In this document: piece after piece, positions 26,556-32,112 of the stretch
Position numbering within the stretch: position 1 is the stretch's first letter
How the letters are laid out: each line of letters opens with the position of its first letter
Assembly (NCBI RefSeq): GCF_000733765.1
Contig: NZ_JPOG01000001.1
Location: 3,668,501-3,732,500, forward strand
Direction: 5' to 3'
Length of the DNA stretch: 64,000 bases
Source of the DNA: Algiphilus aromaticivorans DG1253
GTDB lineage: Bacteria > Pseudomonadota > Gammaproteobacteria > Nevskiales > Nevskiaceae
Made by a program: the position numbers and the translations under genes
Notes under the pieces: generated by a model
What the model was told of the DNA's origin: nothing
The model's input: the letters and a program-made list of their open reading frames with translations, nothing else
Databases searched by the model: none

Positions 26556-27819
26556 CGATCCCTTCCACTGGCGCGCCGGCGTGTTGTATGCCGAGGACGT
26601 TTCCTGCGAGCAACTCGCCCAGCGCTTCGGCACGCCGCTCTACGTCTATTCGCGCGCCGCGCTGGAGTCGGCCTATCGCGCCTTCGATGAGGCCTTTGCC
26701 GAGCTGCCGCACCGCGTCTGCTTCGCGGTCAAGGCCAACAGCAATCTTGCCGTTCTGCAGACGCTGGCGCGCGCCGGAAGCGGCTTCGACATCGTCTCCG
26801 GCGGCGAGCTGGCGCGCGTGCTGGCCGCGGGCGGCGACCCGGCGGGCATCGTCTTCTCCGGCGTCGGCAAGGCGCGCGAGGAAATGGCCGCAGCCCTGGA
26901 TGCCGGCATTGGCTGCTTCAACATCGAGTCGGTGGCCGAGCTCGATCTGCTCGACCGCACCGCCCGCGACAAGGGCATGTCCGCGCCGGTGGCGCTGCGC
27001 GTGAACCCGGACGTGGACCCGAAGACGCATCCCTACATCGCCACCGGCCTGGCGCAGAGCAAGTTCGGCATTGCCATCGCCGACGCCCCGGCCCTCTACG
27101 CCGAGGCCATGCAGCGCCCCGGCTTGCAGGTGGTGGGGCTGGCCTGCCACATCGGCTCGCAGCTGCTCGATCTCGACCCCTTCGAGGATGCCCTCGACCG
27201 GCTGCTGGAGCTGGCCGGGCAGCTGCAGGCGCAGGGCGTGCCGCTGGCGCATCTCGACATCGGCGGCGGTCTCGGCGTGCGCTACGGCGACGAGCTGCCG
27301 CCCTCGCCGGCGGCCTATGCCGCAAGGCTGAAGCCGAAGCTGGCCGCGACCGGGCTGGCGGTGCATCTGGAGCCGGGCCGCGCCATTGCCGCCAACGCCG
27401 GCCTGCTGCTGACGCGGGTGCACTACCTGAAGGCGAGCAGCGCGCGCAACTTCGCCATCGTCGACGCGGCGATGAATGATCTGCTGCGCCCGGCGCTCTA
27501 CGACGCCTGGCAGGAGATCGTCGCCGTGCATCCGCACAATGGTGAGGACGAGCAGCTGCTCTACGACATCGTCGGCCCGGTCTGCGAAAGCGGCGACTTC
27601 CTCGGCAAGCAGCGGCCGCTGGCGCTGCGCGCGGACGATCTGCTGGCCGTGCGCGGCGCCGGCGCCTACGGCTTCGTCATGGCCTCGAACTACAACACGC
27701 GCCCGCGGCCGGCGGAAGTCCTGGTCGACGGCGGCAACGAGCATCTGGCGCGCGCCCGCGAAACTCTCGAAGACCTGATGCGCGGCGAGCAGTTGCTGCC
27801 GGAGGCCGGCAATGGCTGA
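26545..27819 (+). CDS. lysA: Diaminopimelate decarboxylase
   Basis: The protein has 424 residues from the ATG at 26545. It is a fold-III PLP decarboxylase: Lys63 in CFAVKANSN binds PLP, the glycine-rich phosphate loop is in DIGGGLGVRYG, and the late CESGDFLG supplies the active-site Cys from the partner subunit. It makes L-lysine from meso-diaminopimelate in the last step of lysine biosynthesis. It overlaps lptM at its 5' end and polA by 8 bases at its 3' end. dapF and xerC, which often follow lysA, are absent here and polA follows directly. Confidence 0.97.
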   Translation: MTTDDPFHWRAGVLYAEDVSCEQLAQRFGTPLYVYSRAALESAYRAFDEAFAELPHRVCFAVKANSNLAVLQTLARAGSGFDIVSGGELARVLAAGGDPAGIVFSGVGKAREEMAAALDAGIGCFNIESVAELDLLDRTARDKGMSAPVALRVNPDVDPKTHPYIATGLAQSKFGIAIADAPALYAEAMQRPGLQVVGLACHIGSQLLDLDPFEDALDRLLELAGQLQAQGVPLAHLDIGGGLGVRYGDELPPSPAAYAARLKPKLAATGLAVHLEPGRAIAANAGLLLTRVHYLKASSARNFAIVDAAMNDLLRPALYDAWQEIVAVHPHNGEDEQLLYDIVGPVCESGDFLGKQRPLALRADDLLAVRGAGAYGFVMASNYNTRPRPAEVLVDGGNEHLARARETLEDLMRGEQLLPEAGNG

Positions 27820-30535
27820 AGCCCGGGAAGCAGGCCCGCTGATCCTGATCGACGGCTCCAGCTGGCTGTATCGCGCCTTCCACGCGCTGCCGGCGCTGAC
27901 GGCACCGGACGGCAGCCCCACCGGCGCCATCTACGGCATGGCGAACATGCTCAAGAAGCTCTTCGCCGACTACGACTGCTCGCGCATCGCCGTGATCTTC
28001 GACCCGCGCGGGCCGACCTTCCGCAACGATCTCTACGCCGACTACAAGGCCAACCGCCCGCCGGTCCCCGAGGAGCTGGGATCGCAGTTCGGGCCGATGA
28101 AGGAGCTGATTGCCGCACTCGGCGTGCCGCTTTTGCAGGTCGACGGCTATGAGGCTGACGACGTCATCGCCACGCTGTCGCGCGCCGCCAGCGCCGACGG
28201 CCAGCAGGTGCTCATCGTCAGCGGCGACAAGGATCTCGCCCAGCTGGTCGACGAGCGTGTGCAGCTGCTCGACACCATGAAGCAGACCACCCTCGACCCC
28301 GAGGCCGTGAAGACGAAGTACGGCGTGTCGCCGGAACGCATCGTCGACTGGCTGGCGTTGATGGGTGATACCTCCGACAACATCCCCGGCATTCCCGGCG
28401 TCGGCCCCAAGACTGCCGCCAAGTGGCTCGACGAGCACGGCAGCCTGGACGCGCTGCTGGAGGCGGCCGACTCGATCAAGGGCAAGGCCGGCGAGCGCCT
28501 GCGCGAGCACGCCGAGCAGCTGCCGATGTCGCGCGAGCTGGCCACGGTGCGCGACGATGTCGACCTCGACCGCAGCTGGCGCGAGCTGCAGCGCAGCGCC
28601 CCCGACAACGACACCCTGCTGGCGCTCTACCGCCAGCTCGGCTTCCGCCGCTGGGTGGAAGCGCTGGAGGCCGAGGCCGGCGGCAGCGCCGAAGCCGGCA
28701 GCGCCGACGCCGAGCCGCCGGCCGCCCCCATCACCGTCACCACGGTTCGCGATGACGCCGCGCTCAAGGAACTGGTTGCCGCGCTGGTTGCCGCCGAACT
28801 GATCTGCCTGGATACCGAGACCGACAGTCTGGATGCGGTCAGCGCCGGCCTGGTCGGCATGTCCTTCGCCGTCGCGCCGGGCGCGGCCTGGTACCTGCCG
28901 CTGGCGCATCGCGGCATGGATACGCCCGAGCAGCTCGACGCCGATGTTGTGCGCAAGGCGCTGGCGCCAATACTGGAGGACGCCAAACGGCCCAAGGTCG
29001 GCCAGAATCTGAAATTCGACATCAACGTTCTGGCCGGCGCCGGCTATCGGCTGGCGGGCGTGGTGCACGACACCATGCTGCAGTCCTACGTGCTCGACCC
29101 GACCTCGCGCCACGACATGGACGCGCTGGCCGAGGCCGAGCTGGGGCACAAGACCATCCCCTACAGCGCCATCACCGGCACCGGCAAGAAGCAGATCGGC
29201 TTCGAGGAAGTCGCCATCGAGCAGGCCGCCGAGTACGCCGGCGAGGACGCCGAGGTGACGCTGCGCCTGCATCAGTCGATGTGGCCGCGGTTGTCCGCCG
29301 ACGCCACCCTGAAGCGCGTCTACGAGGCCATCGACATGCCGCTGGTGCCGGTGCTGGCCGAGATGGAGGCTGCCGGCGTGCGCGTCGACGGCGACGTACT
29401 GGCGCGTGTCTCCAAGGAGCTGGGCGGTCGCATGGAGACGCTGCAGGCCGAATGCTGGGAGCTGGCCGGCGAGCAGTTCAACCTGGCCTCCTCGCAGCAG
29501 CTGCAGCGCGTGCTCTTCGACAAGCTGGAGCTGCCGGTCTCCGTGCGTACGCCCAAGGGCGCGCCCTCCACTAACGAGGAGGCGCTGGAGGCACTGGCCG
29601 ATCGCCACGAGCTGCCGGCGCGCATCCTGGAGTGGCGCAGCCTCTCCAAGCTGCGCGGCACCTACGCCGACGCGCTGCCGAAGAAGATCAACCCCGCCAC
29701 CGGGCGCATCCACACGCACTACCACCAGGCCGGCACCACCACGGGGCGTCTGTCCTCATCCGAGCCGAATCTACAGAACATCCCCATCCGCAGCGAGGAA
29801 GGCCGGCGCATCCGCGACGCCTTCGTCGCGGAAGAGGGGCAGACGCTGATGGCGGTGGATTACTCCCAGATCGAGCTGCGCCTGATGGCGCATTTCTCCG
29901 AAGATGAGCGCCTGATTGCGGCTTTTCGCGACGGCCAGGATATTCATCGCGCCACGGCGGCCGAAGTTTTCGACAGCCCCATCGATGAAGTGAGCGGCGA
30001 GCAGCGGCGCGCGGCCAAGGCCATCAATTTCGGGCTGATCTACGGGATTTCCGCCTTCGGCCTGGCGCGCAACCTCGGCATCGGCCGCGATGAAGCGGCG
30101 CAGACCATCGAGCGCTTCTTCCATCGCTATCCCGGCGTCAAGGCCTATATGGATGGCCAGCGCGAGAAAGGGCGAGAGCAGGGCTTTGTGGAGACTCTGT
30201 GGGGGCGGCGATTACAGCTGCCGCAGATCCGTTCGCGTAACGCCAACCAGCGGCAGTACGCCGAACGCACGGCCATCAATGCGCCGCTGCAGGGCACGGC
30301 CGCCGATCTCATCAAGCTGGCGATGATCGATCTGCATGCCTGGCTGAGCGACAAGCACCCCGAGGTGCGCATGATCATGCAGGTGCACGACGAACTGGTC
30401 TTCGAGGGGCCGGAAAAGGCCCTGCGCGCGGCCGCCGACGACGTGGCGGCGCGCATGTGCGGGGTGACCGAACTCGCCGTGCCGCTGTTGGCGGAGCCGG
30501 GCTTCGGCCGCAGCTGGAACGAGGCGCATGCCTGA
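27812..30535 (+). CDS. polA: DNA polymerase I
   Basis: The 907-residue protein has all three domains. The 5' nuclease (about 1-290) has LILIDGSSWLYRAFHALPA and YEADDVIATL. The 3'-5' exonuclease (about 310-490) has the intact catalytic CLDTETDSLD and the late YAGEDAEVTLRL. The polymerase domain has motif A VDYSQIELRLMAHFS, motif B RRAAKAINFGLIYGIS and motif C QVHDELVFE. It fills gaps after Okazaki primer removal and in repair. It overlaps lysA by 8 bases. A small RNA locus and engB follow, as in Pseudomonas and enteric bacteria. Confidence 0.98.
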   Translation: MAEAREAGPLILIDGSSWLYRAFHALPALTAPDGSPTGAIYGMANMLKKLFADYDCSRIAVIFDPRGPTFRNDLYADYKANRPPVPEELGSQFGPMKELIAALGVPLLQVDGYEADDVIATLSRAASADGQQVLIVSGDKDLAQLVDERVQLLDTMKQTTLDPEAVKTKYGVSPERIVDWLALMGDTSDNIPGIPGVGPKTAAKWLDEHGSLDALLEAADSIKGKAGERLREHAEQLPMSRELATVRDDVDLDRSWRELQRSAPDNDTLLALYRQLGFRRWVEALEAEAGGSAEAGSADAEPPAAPITVTTVRDDAALKELVAALVAAELICLDTETDSLDAVSAGLVGMSFAVAPGAAWYLPLAHRGMDTPEQLDADVVRKALAPILEDAKRPKVGQNLKFDINVLAGAGYRLAGVVHDTMLQSYVLDPTSRHDMDALAEAELGHKTIPYSAITGTGKKQIGFEEVAIEQAAEYAGEDAEVTLRLHQSMWPRLSADATLKRVYEAIDMPLVPVLAEMEAAGVRVDGDVLARVSKELGGRMETLQAECWELAGEQFNLASSQQLQRVLFDKLELPVSVRTPKGAPSTNEEALEALADRHELPARILEWRSLSKLRGTYADALPKKINPATGRIHTHYHQAGTTTGRLSSSEPNLQNIPIRSEEGRRIRDAFVAEEGQTLMAVDYSQIELRLMAHFSEDERLIAAFRDGQDIHRATAAEVFDSPIDEVSGEQRRAAKAINFGLIYGISAFGLARNLGIGRDEAAQTIERFFHRYPGVKAYMDGQREKGREQGFVETLWGRRLQLPQIRSRNANQRQYAERTAINAPLQGTAADLIKLAMIDLHAWLSDKHPEVRMIMQVHDELVFEGPEKALRAAADDVAARMCGVTELAVPLLAEPGFGRSWNEAHA

Positions 30536-30616
30536 GAAAATTTTTCGCAAATACAGTGGATTGCGATAAAGCAGGCGGCTGGAGGCCCTTGGCGGCGAAA
30601 TTTTTCCAGTCAGCCG

Positions 30617-30644
30617 GGAACCCGCGCCCGCACCCTCTGTCTGA
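30617..30644 (+). promoter_or_regulatory. Sigma-E/AlgU-type promoter for the polA-engB small RNA
   Basis: GGAACC at 30617-30622 and TCTGA at 30640-30644 give GAACCC, 16 bases, TCTGA, close to the extracytoplasmic sigma consensus GAACTT-N16/17-TCTGA. Transcription would begin at about 30651. The P. aeruginosa small RNA ErsA, at the same locus, is driven by AlgU (sigma-22). The match was found by eye. Confidence 0.65.
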
Positions 30645-30650
30645 TCTGGT

Positions 30651-30766
30651 GAGCGTTATCCCCTTGACGCTCCTCTGTCTCCACTCCCTGGACAGAGTTC
30701 CGGCATTCCCCCCTGAAGCCGGAGATGCTGCCGGGCGATTTCCCCCGAGTCGCCCGGCACTTTTTT
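30651..30766 (+). ncRNA. Probable trans-acting small RNA (ErsA/Spot 42 locus)
   Basis: The 252-base gap between polA and engB has no reading frame resembling its neighbours. From the predicted start it holds two successive hairpins with C-rich loops. Hairpin 1 is TCCGGC/GCCGGA at 30699-30723 with CCCCCC in the loop. Hairpin 2 is a perfect 10-bp stem at 30729-30759 with CCCCC in the loop, followed by TTTTTT. C-rich loops can pair with Shine-Dalgarno sequences. Spot 42 in enteric bacteria and ErsA in Pseudomonas occupy this same place. The predicted length, about 116 nt, is similar. Sequence homology was not tested; the 5' end is estimated. Confidence 0.68.
30729..30766 (+). terminator. Intrinsic terminator of the small RNA
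   Basis: TGCCGGGCGA (30729-30738) pairs perfectly with TCGCCCGGCA (30750-30759) around an 11-base loop, then one C and six T (30761-30766). On the minus strand no T-run follows the stem, so it would not end engB transcription the same way. Confidence 0.9.
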
Positions 30767-30787
30767 GGGCGCCCTGATAGTTTTTGA

Positions 30788-31387
30788 CTATAGCCCCGGT
30801 TCTCCCTTCAACCAGGCTCCCAGCTTGGTCTGCGCCTGCTCGCAGCCGCTGCCGTCGGCGGCCGAGAAGGTTTGACAGGTGGCGCGCTCGCCCAGCGCCT
30901 TCTGCACCTGCTGGCGGACGTTGGCGGCGCGGCCGCGCGAGAATTTGTCGGCCTTGGTCAGCAGCACGTGCACGCGCCGTCCGGATGACTCCGCCCAGGT
31001 CAGCATCTGCTCGTCGTGCGGTGTCAGCGGGTGGCGGATGTCCATGATCAGCGCGATGCCCACCAGCTGGTCGCGGCTCGCGATGTAGCCGCCCACCATC
31101 ACGTTCCATTCCCGGCGGATCTTCTCTGGAACATTGGCGTAGCCGTAGCCGGGCAGGTCCACCAGATGGCCGCCGGGCAGACTGAAGATATTGAGCAGCT
31201 GCGTGCGACCGGGCGTCTTCGACGTGCGCGCGAGCTTACGGCGCTGGCAGATCTTGTTCAGCGCGCTGGACTTGCCGGCGTTGGAGCGGCCGGCGAAGGC
31301 GATCTCCGGAAGCGACTCGGTGGGCAGCTGCTCGTGGCGCGCGCAGGAGCGCAGGAACTCGGCTTTGGGGAAGGGGTTGTCGCTCAC
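30788..31387 (-). CDS. engB: Ribosome biogenesis GTP-binding protein EngB (YihA/YsxC)
   Basis: The protein has 199 residues from the GTG at 31387 ([11 protein letters not shown]...). It is a TRAFAC GTPase with the P-loop [12 protein letters not shown], switch element [17 protein letters not shown] and the specificity motif TKADK. EngB helps large-subunit assembly and is usually essential. The frame is open upstream, but GTG fits the usual family N-terminus. No Shine-Dalgarno sequence precedes it on its strand (GCGGCCCTCCC). It lies 3' to the small RNA and is divergent from the cytochrome c4 gene. Confidence 0.95.
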
Positions 31388-31485
31388 GGGAGGGCCGCAT
31401 CGGGTATATTTGCGCGCGGCAAACCTTAAACCTTTCCGCCGTCGGCCGTACGAAAAGCCGGCGCGTGACACTCCACGGAGCAGCA

Positions 31486-32112
31486 ATGAAGCGCATCCTC
31501 CTTGCCGCCTGGCTGTTAGCCAGCGGCTCCGCATTGGCCGCAGAGAATCCGCTGGTCGGAGGCGACGCCGAGGCCGGTCAGCAGAAAGCGGCGGTCTGCG
31601 CCGCCTGCCACGGTCCGAACGGCAACAGCAACAATCCGGAGTGGCCGGTACTCGCCGGGCAGCATGCACGCTACACCGTCGACCAGCTCAAGGCCTACAA
31701 GAGTGGCGCGCGCAAGAACGCGGTCATGCAGGGCCAGGCCGCAGGCCTGTCCGAGCAGGACATGCAGGATCTCGCCGCCTATTTCGCCGAGCAGGAGCCG
31801 AAGCCGCGCACCGCCCGCGAAGAGGCGGTGGCGATCGCTCAGCCGCTGTGGCGCGCCGGTGACGCCGAGCGCGATCTGCCCGCCTGCGCGGCCTGTCACG
31901 GTCCCGCCGGTATCGGTAATGCGGGGGCGGCTTATCCACGCATCGCCAATCAGCATCCGCAGTACACCGCCACCCAGCTGCGCGCTTACCGCGCCGGTGA
32001 ACGTGGACAGGGCACCTCGGGTCAGATGATGCAGCGCGTGGCTACCGAGCTGACGGACGAGGAAATCGAGGCACTCGCCTCCTACGCTGCCGGCCTGCAG
32101 CCGCGCCACTGA
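31486..32112 (+). CDS. Cytochrome c4, di-heme
   Basis: The protein has 208 residues with GGAGCA before the ATG. A signal peptide ([16 protein letters not shown]) directs it to the periplasm. Two haem-binding motifs, C38AACH42 and C134AACH138, lie in two similar halves, with downstream Met-containing segments as sixth-ligand candidates. Cytochrome c4 carries electrons between the bc1 complex and terminal oxidases. It lies 29 bases before dsbA. The neighbourhood engB / cytochrome c4 / dsbA is common in Pseudomonas-like gammaproteobacteria. Confidence 0.95.

Follow-up and report, generated by a model that had tools for sequence, protein, structure and literature searches.

The gap between polA and engB in Algiphilus aromaticivorans DG1253 raises the question of whether it carries a small RNA (sRNA) gene of its own, how such a gene might be controlled, and how it is related to the sRNAs described beside polA in other bacteria. 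In the window, by which we mean the whole 64,000-nucleotide stretch of DNA that was analysed, this gap contains GGGAACCC, 16 bases, TCTGA, and then 116 nt arranged in four predicted hairpins that end in six T. The features of the locus are:

27812-30535, + strand: polA (DNA polymerase I), an open reading frame with Pfam PF00476 (518 bits) and exonuclease domains.
30617-30623, + strand: GGAACCC, the -35-like box of a sigma-E-type promoter motif, read from the sequence and kept in position in relatives.
30640-30644, + strand: TCTGA, the -10-like box, 16 bases 3' of GAACCC (30618-30623).
30651-30766, + strand: predicted sRNA of ~116 nt, start inferred (fold z -9.15; 95.1 bits with model R1 and 86.6 bits with model R2, both of which include the window copy in their training set).
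30651-30672, + strand: hairpin 1 of the predicted fold, loop UCCCCU at 30659-30664.
30673-30697, + strand: hairpin 2 of the predicted fold, loop CCACUCCCU at 30681-30689, its UCCCU core invariant in 70 aligned copies.
30698-30724, + strand: hairpin 3 of the predicted fold, loop CCCCCU at 30709-30714.
30729-30759, + strand: hairpin 4, the intrinsic terminator stem by fold and terminator scan, loop CCCCC at 30742-30746.
30760-30766, + strand: terminator tail in the sequence, C and then six T.
30788-31669, - strand: engB/yihA GTPase (TIGR03598, 213.1 bits, cut-off 124.45; PF01926).

The predicted RNA begins 115 nt after the stop codon of polA, its upstream neighbour, and is convergent with engB/yihA, whose reading frame stays open further upstream and whose true start is uncertain. 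The original prediction, made from the letters of this DNA, had described GAACCC, 16 bases and TCTGA ahead of a 116-nt RNA with two hairpins and a perfect 10-bp terminator stem followed by six T. Both boxes and the 16-base spacer are present (GAACCC at 30618-30623, TCTGA at 30640-30644), and the 116-nt fold was borne out, with a folding energy of -58 kcal/mol compared to a shuffle mean of -31.09 (sd 2.94; z -9.15) and none of 200 shuffles as good. The terminator stem comprises 13 pairs, the outer 10 of which are perfect, and leads into C and six T. The count of two hairpins was an undercount, because four were found and all four carry C-rich loops. A single terminator-like site, which is hairpin 4 and lies on one strand only, was detected between 30450 and 30850, and the same region contained no sigma-70-like promoter. 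When the window was searched with R2 up to E 10, the predicted sRNA was the sole match. On the comparative evidence, we consider that the feature is a real and conserved RNA gene, its transcription being inferred.

Within the family, which includes Solimonas, Nevskia and Stagnimonas, polA was located in 57 of 58 genomes, our own included, and the sequence 3' of polA was taken from the 56 other genomes and the window. Model R1 was built from 70 family copies of the RNA and holds no flanking genes. Counted within ~900 bases after polA, R1 places the RNA 3' of polA in 54 of the 57 genomes (53 of the 56 others plus the window), with 74 copies altogether: one copy in 39 genomes, two in ten and three in five (15 tandem). 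The three misses were a locus at a contig end (L161), a locus where no polA end was found (L197) and a locus (L179, genome G010) that has polA and enough sequence, yet no copy within ~900 bases 3' of polA. Since R1 was built from 70 of these 74 copies, its scores for them are not independent evidence; most family copies were first found by a terminator scan, independent of R1. One copy (L183_1), missed by the rule used to set copy starts, stands outside the alignment, and the second L149 copy, the third L183 copy and an L167 copy cut by a contig end were added later via R1. At two loci from one genus (L144 and L195), the three copies share 54-67% identity inside one genome and 92-100% with their counterparts in the other, and have therefore been kept apart. 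The tandem copies at L151 and L168, which are 94-97% alike within the genome, look recent. Two further loci (L182:162-187 and L196:161-186) display an extra terminator-like hairpin with a CCCC loop soon after polA, besides the sRNA.

The four-hairpin structure was found in all 70 folded family copies. RNAalifold predicted 25 pairs, 20 of them with compensated double changes, and in alignment A1 the paired cells amounted to 96.1%, compared to 84.9% in shuffles and 31.6-48.5% when the alignment was slid; double-change cells numbered 242 versus 66.5 in shuffles. These A1 counts include a misplacement of hairpin 1 by a few columns in the window copy and L142. With alignment A3, double changes were seen in 24 of 25 pairs, a count that leans towards structure because A3 was fitted to it. 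A CCC run is present in all four loops of 59 copies and in three loops of the other 11. Of the 70 copies, 61 have CUCCC in loop 1 and 65 in loop 2, and 67 have CCCC in loop 3 and 68 in loop 4; unlike most family copies, the window copy has a CCCC-type loop 1 as well. The UCCCU of loop 2 is invariant across the 70 aligned copies. Mean column entropy is nearly equal in loops (0.59) and pairs (0.66), which counts against a simple story. In one genus, the terminator loops at L191:296-407 and L192:591-702 read CAGAA and CAAAA and lack a C run, and loops 1-3 keep theirs.

We scored upstream sequences out of 12 points against the rule GGAACTT (AAC required), 15-17 bases and TC[TA][GA]A, which rests on what we take to be the sigma-E consensus. 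In the family, 65 of the 70 copies scored at least 10, compared to 1.2% of dinucleotide shuffles. The same level was reached at named non-family polA loci by 18 of 23 copies and across the class by 25 of 29 loci (the sets overlap, L210 with L067 and L220 with L059), with 1.2-1.7% of shuffles reaching it over all the comparisons. A stricter rule was satisfied by 61 of 71 copies. Among aligned copies from multi-copy genomes, 27 of 29 scored at least 10 and all 29 at least 9. The usual -35 box in the family is TTGAACTT, of which GGAACCC in the window is a weak version; the window scores 10/12, and both the position of the box and the 16-base spacing are kept in relatives. The relative from the same genus, with GGAACCC and a -10 box TCCTA, scores 8/12 and is the sole copy of the 70 below 9. 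This lowest score, together with GGAACCC in the window, indicates that sigma-E may control the RNA only weakly in this genus, or no longer at all. Our own genome encodes RpoE (279.7 bits, cut-off 236.15) and Hfq (101.7 bits). Autoregulation of rpoE was considered and set aside, as the 700 bases before rpoE hold no good sigma-E site (best 8/12).

Outside the family the RNA is found in many genomes. At 80 named polA loci, R1 detected 29 copies in 22 loci (E <=1e-3), all on the + strand 3' of polA; four of these loci (L032, L034, L036 and L037) belong to family genomes used in training and were counted apart, which leaves 23 copies at 18 named non-family loci, 16 of which also show engB in the fetched stretch. 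The remaining 58 named loci gave no R1 match at E 1e-3, including loci labelled Achromobacter, Variovorax, Marinobacter and Methylomonas. In a draw of 274 genomes across the class, 88 matched R1 at E <=1e-3, our own included, and 186 did not; the distribution across the class is patchy. Among the best 29 of the 87 other class genomes, 24 loci lie beside polA and/or engB, and nine have engB and no polA in the fetched stretch. The five not beside polA or engB include L206, which ends shortly after the match. Tandem arrays also occur outside the family, with four copies in genome G029 (L201), three in Salinisphaera shabanensis (L104) and three at a locus labelled Endozoicomonas sp. G2_2 (L052).

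Across the phylum, R1 matched 30 genomes in a draw of 299 (E <=0.05). Five of the matched loci (L276, L278, L279, L281 and L285) adjoin hemB, and four sit between engB and hemB. A match to RF02837, the Rfam family anti-hemB, in genome G435 likewise lies between engB and hemB (hemB confirmed by NCBIfam, 506.2 bits), and in G179 the RNA precedes hemB, with no engB within 6 kb. We take these hemB-side genomes for Burkholderiales-type. By eye, GAACTT-16-TCTTA and GAACTT-16-TCATA precede the hemB-side copies at L276 and L278, and the motif was absent by eye at L285. For six further matches (L280, L290-L292, L294 and L295), which come from other classes of the phylum, probably Alphaproteobacteria, tblastn of the fetched stretch revealed neither polA nor engB nor hemB. 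With R3, a model that includes ErsA, sX13 and anti-hemB, L280, L290, L291, L294 and L295 scored 31.6-33.8 bits and L292 scored 25; in L280, L291 and L295 the loop of the terminator is not rich in C. We did not extend the RNA beyond the class on these matches, since they lie away from polA, engB and hemB and may reflect convergence or another family.

The original claim is supported in so far as it proposes a separate RNA gene at polA-engB that has C-rich loops and a promoter motif of sigma-E type, and the hairpins, loops and promoter motif, whose conservation had been named in advance as a possible point of refutation, are all kept in relatives. The accompanying view that the lineage lacks a described homologue did not survive. 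At gathering thresholds, Rfam recognised one tRNA alone in the window, and below threshold the best match at the RNA was anti-hemB (38.6 bits, E 1.7e-7, cut-off 49.5), followed by BjrC80 (33.5 bits, cut-off 80) and ErsA (19.8 bits, cut-off 50); in contrast to this local scan, the window copy was absent altogether when the whole genome was scanned with RF02837. When 20 family loci were scanned, 11 copies in seven of them passed the RF02837 gathering score, with up to 57.2 bits, and sX13 proved to be a relative as well. ErsA and Spot 42, the RNAs originally named for comparison, stand further away: ErsA reaches the 19.8 bits given above, and Spot 42 (RF00021, Spot 42 of enteric bacteria, gathering 80 bits) is absent from the matches of the window up to E 10.

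Anti-hemB (Burkholderia; ncS04 of B. cenocepacia) and the window RNA have hairpins 2-4 and a CUCCCUG loop in common. Its Rfam model spans 81 positions and lacks hairpin 1. Seven hemB-side loci pass RF02837 at 55.2-76.5 bits; in five (L242, L276, L278, L279 and L281) the RNA is flanked by engB and hemB and converges on engB, as in the window, and the other two (L241 and L285) show no engB in the fetched stretch. The window copy, in contrast, falls below the cut-off and sits at polA-engB. Among 20 non-family loci scanned, two passed RF02837 (L205, 58.4 bits; L214, 51.7 bits). For sX13 of the Xanthomonadaceae (RF02232, gathering 50 bits), the window was not listed up to E 10, and the best family copies, at two of 20 loci, reached 37.3 and 35.9 bits, below the cut-off. 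According to the available text of the sX13 paper (PMC3771888), this RNA lies 3' of polA and has C-rich apical loops, like the window RNA, and is 115 nt long with three stem-loops, compared to four here. Two true sX13 genes, the ones also scored with R2 below, were detected by R1 in whole genomes (34.3 and 29.1 bits); neither copy shows a clear sigma-E motif by eye. ErsA (Pseudomon-1, RF01719) of Pseudomonas, in its true copy at L244, is also located 3' of polA, with TTGAACTT...TCATA upstream and C-rich loops. Spot 42 shares the position 3' of polA; in two alignments most of the match falls on the terminator, and the loops of Spot 42 are not C-rich.

We additionally scored these RNAs with model R2, which comprises 69 copies; the 47 non-family loci tested for it show no hemB, and its training set holds no true sX13, ErsA or Spot 42 gene, although some of its copies themselves pass RF02837. 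The seven hemB-side anti-hemB loci, five of which had first been found by R1, scored 38.6-51.7 bits, both true sX13 genes 42.0 and 41.6 bits, the one true ErsA 27.9 bits and three Spot 42 genes 18.2-22.0 bits. At 56 other named polA loci, R2 gave nine matches in eight loci at E <=1, all on the + strand and within ~320 bases after polA. R1 did not match the true ErsA up to E 1. The four tandem copies at L201 include matches to the models of sX13, anti-hemB, ErsA and ar14, all with E no higher than 0.0017. Because of the R2 scores on one side, and the miss of ErsA by R1 and the other-class matches of R3 on the other, we regard descent as well supported for anti-hemB and sX13 and kinship with ErsA, argued from place, promoter motif and intermediates, as probable. 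The comparisons suggest that sX13, anti-hemB and probably ErsA share one ancestor with the window RNA. Spot 42 could not be accepted as a clear relative, since its scores (18.2-22.0 bits with R2, 19.2-23.4 with R3) are about those of four weak RF02837 loci (20.3-22.3).

We think it likely that the locus is a trans-acting sRNA gene of sigma-E type whose C-rich loops act on G-rich ribosome-binding regions and which is kin to anti-hemB, sX13 and probably ErsA. A sigma-E/AlgU-type promoter, as its motif suggests, would transcribe the sRNA under envelope stress; the ~116-nt RNA would fold into four rigid hairpins, as fold and covariation support, and in most family copies would expose two CUCCC-type and two CCCC-type loops. 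By analogy with sX13, these loops would pair with G-rich Shine-Dalgarno or nearby mRNA sequence and block translation. The RNA would be the Solimonas/Nevskia-family member of an RNA that stands beside polA, engB or hemB in many, though not all, Gammaproteobacteria in the wide sense. A search of our own genome for AGGGAGTG-N2..10-ATG, the 8-base complement of loop 2, gave three matches compared to one for the reversed control. At L306:1501-1514, AGGGAGTG, the exact complement of loop 2 CACUCCCU, lies three bases before the ATG of a polysaccharide-export gene (PF02563, 52.4 bits), and we regard this gene as a lead only; the other two matches open frames of five and 164 residues. The ribosome-binding site of hfq, a target of sX13, contains no G run here, and GGGGG occurs ~100 bases upstream. 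Our own genome also holds, outside the window (L199:1501-1597, G000:C1:2226109-2226205), a second candidate RNA of 97 nt (z -3.70), with a run of TTCCCCCC, seven T at its terminator and, by eye, GGAACTC-16-TCAGA upstream; it scores 20.0 bits with R1 and 24.9 with R3 and is below the RF02278 and RF02837 cut-offs.

Several other explanations bear on this interpretation. The element could be a mere terminator or 3' stabiliser of polA, or a shared end of polA and engB, given that it lies 115 nt after polA, has an intrinsic terminator and is the only terminator-like site in 30450-30850. One hairpin suffices for a terminator, however, whereas four with C-rich loops are kept here; the site lies on a single strand; the promoter motif is conserved upstream, including before the 27 of 29 aligned copies in multi-copy genomes; and nine of the best 29 class loci have engB without polA in the stretch while seven loci lie beside hemB, all of which makes this account highly improbable. 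It is also conceivable, although unlikely, that the RNA is a real sRNA of the family that in this genus is constitutive or uses another sigma factor, and is no envelope-stress RNA. The GGAACCC box of the window, the sister copy with GGAACCC and TCCTA as lowest of the 70 and the two true sX13 genes lacking a clear sigma-E motif all speak for it, and it is opposed by the conserved position and 16-base spacing, the window score of 10/12 and the lack of a sigma-70-like site in the region.

What the loops do is a separate matter. Four of them per RNA, together with tandem copies (up to three in the family and four in a genome of the same order), could titrate a partner, and the target search returned only three matches against one in the control; binding of a protein or sponging of G-rich RNAs, instead of the blocking of ribosome-binding sites, nonetheless seems quite improbable, as the relative sX13 reportedly acts via its loops on G-rich mRNA motifs (PMC3771888). 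As for descent, C-rich loops are known in sRNAs of distant bacteria according to the same source (PMC3771888), the direct ErsA score is low, and five other-class sequences away from polA reach 31.6-33.8 bits with R3, although these were chosen as the best of a scan of 299 whole genomes and ErsA came from a 7.5-kb stretch. The likeness to ErsA, sX13 and anti-hemB might on these grounds be convergent, with C-rich-loop sRNAs having arisen separately at one locus. We find this improbable in view of the place, orientation and promoter motif common to these RNAs, the single loci matched by several of these Rfam models (two each at L104 and L090, three at L201), and the 38.6-51.7 bits of sX13 and hemB-side anti-hemB with R2, which holds neither, even though some of its training copies pass RF02837.

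For sX13, function is reported to require C-rich loops and G-rich mRNA motifs and to be independent of Hfq, and the available text of that paper notes the polA locus shared with Spot 42 and no sequence similarity to Spot 42 or alpha-r7 (PMC3771888). ErsA is reported to depend on sigma-22 and to repress oprD and algC (PMC7565897, PMC8395346, PMC7264166), acting on oprD together with Hfq (PMC7264166), and Spot 42 to be repressed by CRP (PMC8672173). Anti-hemB, of 105 nt, is described among RNAs strongly expressed in B. cenocepacia biofilms (PMC5688073), and a survey of Burkholderia counts it among the known homologues (PMC3521395). We found no paper naming both ErsA and sX13, in a literature that covers few subscription papers and leaves priority uncertain, and the sX13 paper (PMC3771888) was the only one with both Spot 42 and sX13. 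The available part of a review that treats ErsA, polA and Spot 42 draws no link among these, and a link to other polA-side sRNAs was not found in the accessible text on Spot 42 and polA synteny. That these three Rfam families, each filed on its own, look like a single RNA linked to polA and engB is a reading absent from the literature that we found.

A tentative extension, which we hold at somewhat below even, is that the ancestor of the Gammaproteobacteria including Burkholderiales carried, between polA and engB, a single sigma-E-driven sRNA with C-rich loops. Anti-hemB, sX13, ErsA and the window RNA would be direct descendants of this sRNA, and Spot 42 an enteric descendant in which the C-rich loops disappeared and envelope-stress control gave way to regulation by CRP and carbon supply. 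In some lineages the RNA would have been amplified into tandem arrays of diverged, retained copies, and in others it would have been lost.

Taken together, the RNA is found in nearly all of one family and in part of its class (88 of 274 genomes), and it would tie together three Rfam families that have no clan. If this is true, the sigma-E control of ErsA and the action of sX13 through C-rich loops on G-rich sites would become testable in the other members and in unstudied bacteria, and the tandem arrays would serve as natural experiments on how an RNA of this kind divides up its targets. The interest of the locus lies chiefly in this wider unification of sRNA families.
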